From Pseudomonadota bacterium (GTDB lineage: Bacteria; Myxococcota_A; Polyangia; Polyangiales; JAKSBK01): a stretch of 37,771 nucleotides of DNA. Made by a program: the position numbers and the translations under genes. Under the pieces are notes generated by a model that saw only the letters and a program-made list of their open reading frames with translations, was not told where the DNA came from and did no database searches. The stretch is taken from NCBI GenBank assembly GCA_022361155.1, contig JAKSBK010000147.1, positions 1 to 37,771 of the forward strand. Direction: 5' to 3'. Of this stretch, positions 2,182-34,170 are shown piece after piece; position 1 is the stretch's first letter, and each line of letters begins with the position of its first letter.

Positions 2182-4026
2182 TCACCTCTTTGTGCTCTGC
2201 ACCGCCAGGTGCGCGCTCTGAGCCAGCTGGTCATGCTGGCGCGTCAGCACGATGGCTTGGGCTTCATCCCCCCGATGCCACGCGTCATCGATCTGACGCG
2301 CCAACAAGGGGAGCGCACGCTCGACCCGTTGCTTCTCAAGTAAAGCTGTTCCGTTTCGAAGTGCGTCAACGGCAGCATTCTGGTCGTACTTCTCGATAGA
2401 AAAACGTCCTTCAAGCCAGGTGCGCACGGGCTCATCTTGGAGCCCGTCAAGCAAAGGGCCACACTCTATAGCACCGCGCAGCCCGACCATCGAAGCGGCG
2501 GCACGAAAGATGGCCTGTAGGGAGGGATGCGTCAAAAGCTCGCCGAGCCTTTTTGCATCGTGCGTGGTAAACAGGCTCGGCTGGTCGATCAGCACCCCGA
2601 TCAAGTCGCGCTCCAGTTCCGGAACGTCAGATTCCGTTGAATTCTGTTTTAGCCGAATGAAATTGGCTTCAGAGTGACCGGAACGCCCGGCTTTACCGTG
2701 CAAACCCGTTCGCAATTGGGCCTTTACGGCCTGCAAATCCGTGACCCCGAAGCGCCTCGCCACGCGCTCGACATAGAGGCGGCGCTCTACTGGGCTGTGT
2801 ACCGCTGCCAGCATGGGAGCCAAGCCCGCGATCGCCCGCGCCTTGGCCGCCGGCGTATCCGCCTCGGCGGCAGCTTGCTCGATCAGGTAGTCCATCGCAT
2901 TCGCGGCCCCATCGATCAGCCGGGTCAAGTGCTGGGCTCCCCTCGATCGAATCAACGAATCGGGATCCTCTCCGGGGGGCAGTTGTGCAACACGCGTCTC
3001 GATGCCCGCCCGCTGTAGCGCCTCGTAGGCTGGACGCACGGCTTTGTGGCCAGCCCCATCTGCATCGAACAGCAGTGTGACCCGATCGGCAGCCCGGCGA
3101 AGCAGTTTGCACTGTGCATCGGTCAACGCGGTCCCTAGCGGCGCCGCCGCATTCGGGTATCCGACTTGATGCAACGCAAGCACGTCGAAATTGCCCTCGC
3201 ACAGCGCGATCCAGCCGCGCCTGCGTGCCTCGACCCGACCCTGGTGCAGGCCAAAAAGCAACTCGCCCTTTGAATACAGGGGGGTATCGGGACTGTTGAT
3301 GTACTTGGGCTCCGAATGGGCCTCGGACGGCCCGCTTCGCTCCAGGAGGCGGCCGCTGAAGGCGACTACGTGGCCGTGCGCGTCTACGATCGGGAACATC
3401 AAGCGGTGTCGAAACCGATCGTAGTAGCGCCCAGCCTGGCCGGTTCGCGCTACCACCAGCCCGACAAGCTCCGCCTCTGCCATGGACACGCCCTGGGCAC
3501 GCAGCCATTGACCGAGCGTATCCCAAGCGTCCGGGGCGTACCCCAGGCCGAACGACTGTACCGCCCCGGCGTCGATTCTCCGTTTGGTCAGTTCGTCTTT
3601 GGCAACGACAGCCCCGGGGTGCTCCGAGTACTGACGCACGAAGAACTCGGCGGCACTAGCGACAATGGAGCGGAGCCGCTCGCGACGAATCCGCTCGCGT
3701 TTGGCCGCCTGCCCATCGTCGGTTGAAGGCTCGGGAAGCCTTACTCCAGCGCGCTCCGCCAACTGACGCAGCGCCTCGAGGAACGAGCAATCCTGCATGC
3801 GCATCACGAAAGCGATGCTGTCACCGGAGGCGCGACACCCGAAACAGTAGAAGAAGCCCCTCCCCGGATGTACATGGAATGAAGGCGTCTTTTCCGAGTG
3901 AAAGGGACACAGGCCGCGAAGGCTCTTGCCGGCGCGCTTGAGCGAGACGTACTCTCCAACGAGGGTCTCGATATCCGTTCTCTCGCGTACTTCGGAGATG
4001 TAATCGGATGGAATCAAGAACGACAT
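2182..4026 (-). CDS. dnaG: DNA primase DnaG
   Basis: Synthesises RNA primers at the replication fork. 614 aa, normal for the family. The N-terminal CHC2 zinc ribbon is visible ([21 protein letters not shown]). Next come the RNA-polymerase core with a Toprim fold ([28 protein letters not shown]) and a divergent C-terminal DnaB-interaction region. The reading frame stays open about 290 bases further upstream, but the chosen start [10 protein letters not shown] matches the usual DnaG N-terminus and sits about 13 bases after a predicted transcription start. Its ribosome site is only a run of G's. First gene of a two-gene operon with rpoD, with no spacer to speak of. Confidence 0.97.
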
Positions 4027-9042: not shown

Positions 9043-9366
9043 ATGATCTCCCTCACCGAACGCGCTTCAGAAAAAGTGAAAGAAATCCAGGACACCGAGG
9101 GCCTATCGGGGCAAGGGTTGCGTGTCCGCGTAATCGGCGGCGGCTGCTCAGGCTTCAGCTACGATCTGTATTTCGACGATGAGACGAGTGAGCTCGACGA
9201 GAACTTTAGCTCTCACGGCATCGAATTGTATGTCGACATGATGAGTTATCAATATCTCGCTGACACTGTAATCGATTACGTCGAGGGGCTGCACGGGGCG
9301 GGCTTCAAGTTCAACAACCCAACCGCCAAGACGACCTGCGGCTGTGGATCGAGCTTCGGGGTGTAG
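9043..9366 (+). CDS. Iron-sulfur cluster carrier, HesB/IscA family (ErpA-like)
   Basis: 107 aa A-type carrier that delivers Fe-S clusters to apo-proteins. The three ligand cysteines are C35 in GGGCSGFSYDL and C99 and C101 in CGCGSSF. The acidic FDDE segment and DYVEGLHGAGFKFNNP match the family. The start ATG has no strong ribosome site. It is not in an isc or suf cluster; the next plus-strand gene is a sigma factor. The last codons, which include two of the three ligands and the stop, form the first unit of a five-copy tandem repeat that continues past the gene end. Confidence 0.93.
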   Translation: MISLTERASEKVKEIQDTEGLSGQGLRVRVIGGGCSGFSYDLYFDDETSELDENFSSHGIELYVDMMSYQYLADTVIDYVEGLHGAGFKFNNPTAKTTCGCGSSFGV

Positions 9367-9594
9367 CGCGCGGGCACAACGACCTGCGACTGTGGATCGA
9401 GCTTCGGGGTGTGGCGCGCGGGCATAAACAACCTGCGACTGTGGATCGAGCTTCGGGGTGTGGCGCGCGGGCATAAACAACCTGCGGCTGTGGATCGAGC
9501 TTCGGGATGATTTCGCAGGGCGCGTGGGTGCAATGCCGGCGGGCATAAACAACCTGCGGCTGTGGATCGAGCTTCGGGGTGTAGCGCGCGGGCA
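9334..9594. repeat. Five-copy tandem repeat seeded in the iscA 3' end
   Basis: The core ACCTGCGGCTGTGGATCGAG continues with CTTCGGGG and GTGTAGCGCGCGGGCATA and recurs with starts at 9334, 9382, 9431, 9480 and 9552. Spacings are 48, 49, 49 and 72 bases. The fourth unit has diverged after CTTCGGG and is lengthened by about 23 bases. Copy 1 is the coding end of the Fe-S carrier; copies 2-5 are beyond its stop. Copy 2 is still in frame with copy 1, copies 3-5 are not. Copies differ by G/A in the CGGC/CGAC position and by TAG/TGG at the stop. Confidence 0.95.
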
Positions 9595-9596
9595 TA

Positions 9597-9639
9597 TTGA
9601 CAGCCGTCTCGGAACAGCTAACGTTACGTTACGTAATAT
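9597..9639 (+). promoter_or_regulatory. Possible promoter elements ahead of the RpoH-like sigma gene
   Basis: A perfect TTGACA (9597-9602) sits right where the last tandem repeat copy ends. The AT-rich stretch that follows contains TAACGT at 16 bases (a weak -10) and TAATAT (9634-9639), which is too far at 31 bases. The directly repeated ACGTTACGTTACGTA between them may be an operator. The pairing is uncertain. Confidence 0.3.
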
Positions 9640-9692
9640 TAGCCCTGAGTTCCCCCAGGCGGAACTTCAGATTAGCCAGGGATGGTGATGGC

Positions 9693-10532
9693 ATGCCGGC
9701 AGATCAAGCGGTGACTCGTTACATCGAACGGGTACGAGGGGTTCCTGTCCTGAATCGCGAGACGGAACACCAGCTGGCCGTGCGTGCACGGCAGGGAGAC
9801 GTGGCCGCAGGGCACAGGCTCGTCGAGGCCAACCTGCGCTTCGCGGTGGCCGTGGCGATACGCTTCCGCCACTACGGTATTCCCCTGGCTGAGCTTATCG
9901 CGGAGGGCAACCTGGGCCTCGCGATGGCTGTTCGAAAGTTCGACCCCACCCGGGGAACCCGCTTCGTCACCTACGCGGGCTACTGGATTCGAGCCCTGGT
10001 GCTGGACCTCGTGGTGCGTTCCACGAGCATGGTGGGAGGGGGCTCGGGCGTGCTGCGCTCGAAGGTCTTCTTTAGATTGCGACGCGAGCGAGCCCGAATC
10101 TCGAATCTGATCGGCGACGAGGAGCAGCGCAACCAAAAGCTCGCCAGGCGCTTCAACGTGAAGGCCGACAAGATGAGAGCAATGCTCCTGCAGCTGGATG
10201 CTCGGGATTCGTCGCTCGATGTACCCGCGTACCCGGAGGGCAACCTAACGCTTCTCGATCTCATGGCCGATCACGGGGCAGGCCAAGAGCAAACGTACCT
10301 CAACAGCGAGCGGGAACATATCCTGCGTCGCGAGCTCGGTGCTGCGCTGAGCACGCTCGACAAGCGCGAGCGTTTCATCGTGGAGCGACGGATCATGGGT
10401 GACGAAGAGGAGTCGTTGGCGGAGCTGGGCCGCCAGCTTGGAGTATCGCGAGAGCGCGCAAGACAGCTCGAGGCCCGCGCCAAACGCAAGCTGCGCGAGC
10501 GACTGAAACCCGAGATCTCCAACGCAGCCTAG
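9693..10532 (+). CDS. Alternative sigma factor, RpoH (sigma-32) family
   Basis: About 279 aa. Region 2 is clear (EANLRFAVAVAIRFRHYG, ELIAEGNLGLAMAVRKFDP, FVTYAGYWIRALV). Next is RSKVFFRLRRER, which corresponds to the RpoH box (QRKLFFNLR type) and separates this family from housekeeping sigmas. Region 4 ends in LGVSRERARQLEARAKRKLRE. Myxobacteria carry several such factors (SigB, SigC type) used in heat shock or development. The role here is unknown. Start choice: ATG 9693 (MPADQAV). An in-frame TTG at 9597 extends the frame but overlaps a TTGACA box and encodes no family sequence. The ribosome site AGGGA is rather far (about 10 bases). Confidence 0.93.
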   Translation: MPADQAVTRYIERVRGVPVLNRETEHQLAVRARQGDVAAGHRLVEANLRFAVAVAIRFRHYGIPLAELIAEGNLGLAMAVRKFDPTRGTRFVTYAGYWIRALVLDLVVRSTSMVGGGSGVLRSKVFFRLRRERARISNLIGDEEQRNQKLARRFNVKADKMRAMLLQLDARDSSLDVPAYPEGNLTLLDLMADHGAGQEQTYLNSEREHILRRELGAALSTLDKRERFIVERRIMGDEEESLAELGRQLGVSRERARQLEARAKRKLRERLKPEISNAA

Positions 10533-33450: not shown

Positions 33451-34170
33451 TCACCCGTGTACGTTGGGGGCGGGTAATGCGGTGCCTGACGGTAATGCGG
33501 TGCCGGGCGGTAATGCGGTGCCTGGCGGTAATGCGGTGCCTGGCGGTAATGCGGTGCCTGGCGGCAATGCAGTGCCTGGCGGTAATGCGGTGCCTGGCGG
33601 CAATTCAGCTTCTTCGGGTGCGCTTTCGGACGTGGACGTCGTTCGGGGTGAAAGCGTGTACGATCTGCCCTCGCTCACGACGCTGCGGGCCATGGCGATG
33701 GTACCTGTCTGCACCATCTCGCTGACACCGAAGGCTTTCAGGAGCGTAACCAGCCGATCGATCTTGCCTCGCGTACCCGTGACCTCGACAACCAGCGAGC
33801 TGGGGGCCACGTCCACGGCCCGGGCGTGAAACACCGAGCAGAGCTGCAAGACCTCGACCCGTTGCGCTGCGTCGCACGCAACACGAATCAGCGCCACGCC
33901 CCGCTCGAGGCTCGCGCGATCGGTGATATCGTCTACCCGGCGAACGTTGACGAGCTTGTAGAGGTTGGCCTCGATGAGCCGTCCGGCCCGCTCGTCGGCC
34001 TCGGCGACTATGGTCATGCGCGAGATGCCTGGCTGCTGCGTGCGTCCAACCGTGAGCGAATCGATGTTGTAGCAGCGCCGTCGAAACAACGAAGCGACCC
34101 GGTTTAGCACACCTGGCAGGTCGTCCACCAAGACGCTGAAGGTTCGCAAGCTGCGTGAGGCTTCGGTCAT
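33451..34170 (-). CDS. ilvN: Acetolactate synthase small (regulatory) subunit with hexapeptide-repeat tail
   Basis: 239 aa. The N-terminal ACT domain ([31 protein letters not shown]) binds the valine effector, and the C-terminal ALS regulatory domain runs to about residue 165 ([20 protein letters not shown]). The family normally ends there at about 160-175 aa. Here a Ser/Thr/Glu-rich linker and then seven hexapeptides (six PPGTAL and one PSGTAL, residues 191-232) plus PAPNVHG are added. The tail is encoded by an 18-bp minisatellite. It starts four bases after the ilvB stop, and ilvC follows after 20 bases. Confidence 0.96.
33473..33600. repeat. 18-bp minisatellite, seven copies, inside ilvN
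   Basis: On the plus strand the unit is GGTAATGCGGTGCCTGGC at 33473, 33491, 33509, 33527, 33545, 33563 and 33581. A few substitutions occur (GAC for GGC, CCGGGC, AATGCAGTG), and a partial, decayed copy follows. All units keep the ilvN frame and encode PPGTAL, so copy-number change would alter tail length without a frameshift. Confidence 0.97.

Follow-up and report, generated by a model that had tools for sequence, protein, structure and literature searches.

A probably functionless tandem array of the erpA gene end, and an operator-like element, before an RpoH-like sigma factor gene in a draft genome of the Myxococcota

Introduction

Bacterial VNTR or minisatellite loci and partial gene duplications are the closest described systems to the tandem array presented here, which starts inside an iron-sulphur carrier gene and runs up to a sigma factor promoter. 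As in those loci, near-identical units of tens of bases stand head to tail, are private to one lineage and were born locally, and the array would likewise have been amplified by slippage or unequal exchange. A literature search, judged by title, returned nothing specific on tandem repeats that span a stop codon.

The window, meaning the whole stretch of 37,771 nucleotides that was analysed, corresponds to contig C147 of a draft genome of 5.4 Mb in 608 contigs. The features discussed below are collected in Table 1.

Table 1. Positions of the array, its copies and the flanking elements in the window
Feature	Position	Strand	Remarks
erpA, A-type iron-sulphur carrier, 107 aa	9043-9366	+	Pfam PF01521, 1.2e-19; stop TAG at 9364-9366
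Tandem array	9331-9596	+	Five head-to-tail copies of 48, 49, 49, 72 and 49 bp
Array copy 1 (48 bp)	9331-9378	+	Last 36 nt of erpA (TTCGCGSSFGV and stop) and 12 nt downstream
Array copy 2 (49 bp)	9379-9427	+	GGC>GAC within CGCG, TGG in place of the stop; in the frame of erpA
Array copy 3 (49 bp)	9428-9476	+	Shares the changes of copy 2; not in the frame of erpA
Array copy 4 (72 bp)	9477-9548	+	With a 23-bp insertion that has no other match in the genome
Array copy 5 (49 bp)	9549-9596/7	+	Keeps TAG; right edge at the putative sigma promoter
TTGACA, -35-like box of the putative sigma promoter	9597-9602	+	TTGAC kept in 13/22 palindrome-bearing spacers, window included
Operator-like element TAACGTTACGTTACGTAATATTA	9619-9641	+	Conserved before sigma orthologues; overlaps the site where a -10 box is expected
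RpoH-like (sigma-32-type) sigma factor gene	9693-10532	+	Pfam Sigma70_r2 and r4

The erpA gene end and the tandem array

The carrier gene had been named iscA in the initial annotation, an identity that was not borne out. Its product passes the NCBIfam ErpA equivalog NF010147 with 125.4 bits (cut-off 117), and IscA was rejected because the equivalog TIGR02011 scored 88, far below its cut-off of 150.6. The ErpA translation contains the three conserved cysteines, one internal in GGGCSGFSY and two in the C-terminal CGCG. The tail of the protein hardly varies in length or sequence among relatives (CGCGSS followed by three residues), and array copy 1 is the functional end of the gene.

The annotated run of four further tandem copies downstream of the gene end was confirmed, giving five copies with a TRF score of 304. 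The whole window was simulated 200 times with a first-order Markov model; an array of any kind arose in 157 of these runs, and no score exceeded 77. The five copies thus form a tandem repeat array of the minisatellite or VNTR-like kind (unit of about 10-100 bp, head to tail, beyond chance). Its unit had been described as the last 48 or so bases of the gene, which proved incorrect, since it joins the last 36 nt of erpA to 12-13 nt of DNA from beyond the stop. Because every unit takes 36 nt from the neighbouring erpA end, the array is at the same time a partial gene duplication.

Identity among the copies is 30-32 of 33 positions in a 33-nt core, and copy 5 differs from copy 1 there by a single base. 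The reported repetition of CGCGSSFGV and stop held for the two Cys codons of CGCG, which are found in all five copies, but not for the rest of the motif: copies 2 and 3 have CDCG instead, and the TAG stop is kept in copies 1 and 5 only, with TGG in copies 2 and 3 and the insertion of copy 4 placed at the stop-codon point. The offsets from copy 1 are 48, 97, 146 and 218 nt, so that copy 2 alone shares the frame of erpA and copies 3-5 are out of frame. Copies 2-5, which lie within the spacer, together occupy three reading frames; stops have been lost, a 23-bp insertion is present, and the coding sense of these copies is gone. Judged from the sequence, these changes (Gly to Asp within the ligand motif CGCG, the lost stop, the frame shifts) ignore coding, as expected for untranslated DNA.

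Searching the 5.4 Mb genome with the unit gave five matches at no more than three mismatches, all of them in the array. A distant DNA search of plasmids gave no match. CRISPR, REP/BIME and mobile-element repeats were ruled out, as the unit is confined to one array and its copies abut. Folding of RNA and DNA from the array and from single units was no better than that of shuffled sequences; for the array RNA, z was -0.14 and -1.26 on the two strands. An Rfam scan of the region gave no match.

Strong tandem arrays are common in this genome, with eight rows scoring at least 100 in the 191 kb sampled. Elsewhere in the window, an 18-bp unit is repeated 7.3 times at 33473-33604, in frame at the 3' end of a minus-strand gene (33451-34170), where it adds a tail of about seven copies of the hexapeptide PPGTAL. 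The N-terminal part of this gene's product, compared by eye, presumably represents a relative of the acetolactate synthase small subunit (IlvN/IlvH).

The erpA 3' end in relatives

For comparison, 103 deduplicated erpA loci were assembled from Myxococcota and Acidobacteria, the window included. The closest genomes compared share the order of the window's genome, whose closest kin, judged by ErpA, are uncultured Myxococcota (Sandaracinaceae and other Myxococcales MAGs). Searching relatives for the array had been proposed as a check; none of the other 102 loci carries the array at the 3' end of erpA, a result that fits neutral duplication. At loci with erpA on the plus strand, the last 36 nt of the gene were also compared with the 600 bp downstream, and loci in reverse orientation were covered by the tandem-repeat search. 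The best downstream match was 35/36 in the window and 27/36 in one other locus (L074), against a background of 16-22/36 in the remaining scanned loci. No recombinant erpA end was found among the 103 loci.

The locus L074 (JAGQIT010000537.1, Myxococcales HKST-UBA11) carries at 3294-3518 a 111-bp unit in two tandem copies with 97% identity, which runs over the erpA stop and also takes in a terminator-like hairpin downstream of the gene. The two arrays share neither sequence nor length and are therefore regarded as independent events. A duplication hotspot at the erpA 3' end was considered and found unconvincing: at a TRF score of at least 80 the stop is crossed in 2/103 erpA loci against 1/330 other gene ends, where one of the two is the window itself, selected for its array, and the other ends come from crude ORF calling. 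In another relative (L003, G040:C29), the erpA-sigma spacer is nearly 1 kb long and full of degenerate, GC-rich tandem repeats of 12 to 56 bp.

The sigma factor gene, its promoter and an operator-like element

The sigma factor is termed RpoH-like only, since it does not pass the equivalog rpoH_proteo (TIGR02392; 217.5 bits, cut-off 323). Of two possible starts, the ATG at 9693 appears likelier than the TTG at 9597 because the latter falls within the promoter box; homology to the sigma genes of relatives starts near this ATG. The array was correctly annotated as abutting a TTGACA. It ends directly before the hexamer, and both the hexamer and the palindrome downstream of it are left intact.

The gene order erpA to sigma is kept in about 22 of the nearest relatives. 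The core of TAACGTTACGTTACGTAATATTA (9621-9634) matches the palindrome ACGTTACGTAACGT at 13/14 positions, and this palindrome stands upstream of the sigma start at 11/14 or better in 22 of 23 spacers, window included (nine exact, five at 13/14, seven at 12/14 and one at 11/14). Among 4,600 shuffled stretches of 120 bp, none reached 12/14. TTGAC lies within 35 nt upstream of the palindrome in 13 of these 22 spacers, compared with 0.6 expected from shuffles. When eight relatives were searched genome-wide, exact ACGTTACGTAACGT was present in five, solely at the sigma gene, including two genomes of over 10 Mb, and one-mismatch matches were rare. The palindrome accompanies the sigma gene also away from its usual place after erpA (L125, L127 and L130), and it was not seen at a more distant homologue, L129. 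A second strong operator match in the window's own genome (on C603) falls within a long open reading frame and probably arose by chance.

A consensus promoter scan found no sigma-70 promoter on the plus strand of the erpA-sigma spacer, so that support for the TTGACA box is purely comparative. This comparison makes it very probable that TTGACA and TAACGTTACGTTACGTAATATTA serve as promoter and operator for the sigma gene. No conserved DNA-binding neighbour was recognised beside the sigma gene in 14 relatives as the operator's regulator; the recurrent neighbours checked were an OmpA-family protein, a DUF4398 protein, a TPR-repeat protein and proteins without a Pfam match. A literature search, by titles, found no printed motif with the palindrome as a bacterial operator. 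The combination of a TTGAC box and ACGTTACGTAACGT before an RpoH-like sigma gene extends across several Myxococcota families (L003-L030 and L117-L130) and is nearly gene-specific in each genome tested. This putative operator, which came to light while the promoter claim was being judged, is of more interest than the array. A gene-specific palindromic operator would make the control of an RpoH-like sigma factor a testable question.

Origin and possible function of the array

The array is best explained as a young, lineage-specific tandem duplication without a coding role that spread into the erpA-sigma spacer (probability about 0.85), and it is probably functionless. In favour of this reading stand the core identity of 30-32/33 in five copies, far beyond chance, and the absence of the array from the other erpA 3' ends, where downstream matches in the scanned loci stay at background apart from L074. 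The changes in copies 2-4 (Gly to Asp, stop to Trp, frame shifts and the insertion), which would be harmful if coding, the lack of an unusual fold and of an Rfam match, and the frequency of tandem arrays in the sampled 191 kb also speak for it. Counted against it were that the erpA array has the top score in this sample, that no other array there scoring at least 100 has a period indivisible by 3, and that on its right side it stops, to the exact base, where a conserved promoter box begins. The last coincidence could reflect chance or constraint.

From this pattern we infer the mechanism of birth, the neutrality and the age of the array. One initial duplication, through replication slippage or illegitimate recombination, would have created local homology, on which further slippage or unequal exchange may have driven an outward amplification. 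The slippage array named in the initial annotation thus gains support, the pattern being that of ordinary tandem duplication followed by slippage. Selection would have preserved copy 1, which holds the ErpA C-terminus, and the sigma promoter at the opposite side, leaving the array only the tolerant DNA between two constrained ends. It would be tolerated because copy 1 preserves ErpA and because the array sits in the sole free DNA before the promoter. Physically, the array mainly adds about 230 bp to the erpA-sigma spacer.

Another reading takes the array as a spacer or insulator, which would keep transcription of erpA apart from the sigma promoter or would tune this promoter, as the initial annotation suggested, whether by distance or by bending. 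The promoter itself gained comparative support from TTGAC and the palindrome, and the array stops exactly there. Moreover, a scan of the window found no intrinsic terminator in the erpA-sigma spacer, and terminator-like hairpins do follow erpA in one tested relative. However, the terminator scan of another relative, L143, likewise found no terminator, the array RNA has no unusual fold and the 49-bp period does not equal a whole number of helical turns. The distance from the erpA stop to TTGAC is 230 bp, which is unremarkable beside the 28-284 bp (one outlier at 833) of array-free relatives, so that tuning by distance is not indicated. A role as spacer is accordingly considered unlikely. A narrower form of this idea is that, in a lineage with no intrinsic terminator seen at this place, the array is kept as an insulator of the regulated sigma promoter against readthrough from erpA, with the duplicated gene end co-opted as a transcriptional spacer; this is considered highly improbable.

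An assembly artefact, with units wrongly multiplied in a draft and probably metagenomic assembly, receives a still lower estimate. The number of contigs, and an array longer than one short read, would permit such an error, but the copies are told apart by point changes and by a unique 23-bp insertion, differences that would not arise if a single sequence had been falsely duplicated. Least probable of all is the annotated C-terminal reservoir, in which copy 1 would recombine with later copies to give ErpA variants with changed tails: copy 2, in frame and without a stop, does open a tail of more than 30 residues and fusion to copy 4 would give CGCGSSFGMISQGAWVQCRRA, but fusion to copies 2 or 3 turns CGCG into CDCG, the long tail is foreign to a family whose ends hardly vary and show no recombinants, and the genome holds no repeat cassette elsewhere.

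Comparison with known systems

As a repeat, the array is of an ordinary and very familiar kind. Unlike the usual VNTR or minisatellite, its founding unit straddles a stop codon and joins a gene end to spacer DNA, and its period of 49 bp is not divisible by 3, whereas the other strong arrays sampled in the genome have periods of 15, 18 and 36 bp. The L074 duplication is similar in being an independent tandem event that includes the erpA end (CGCGSSFSV and stop), yet it differs in its longer unit (111 bp), its two copies only, its duplicated terminator-like hairpin and its unrelated spacer sequence. Set beside these systems, the array illustrates how a tandem duplication can start within a gene and be harmless while the original gene end stays first.
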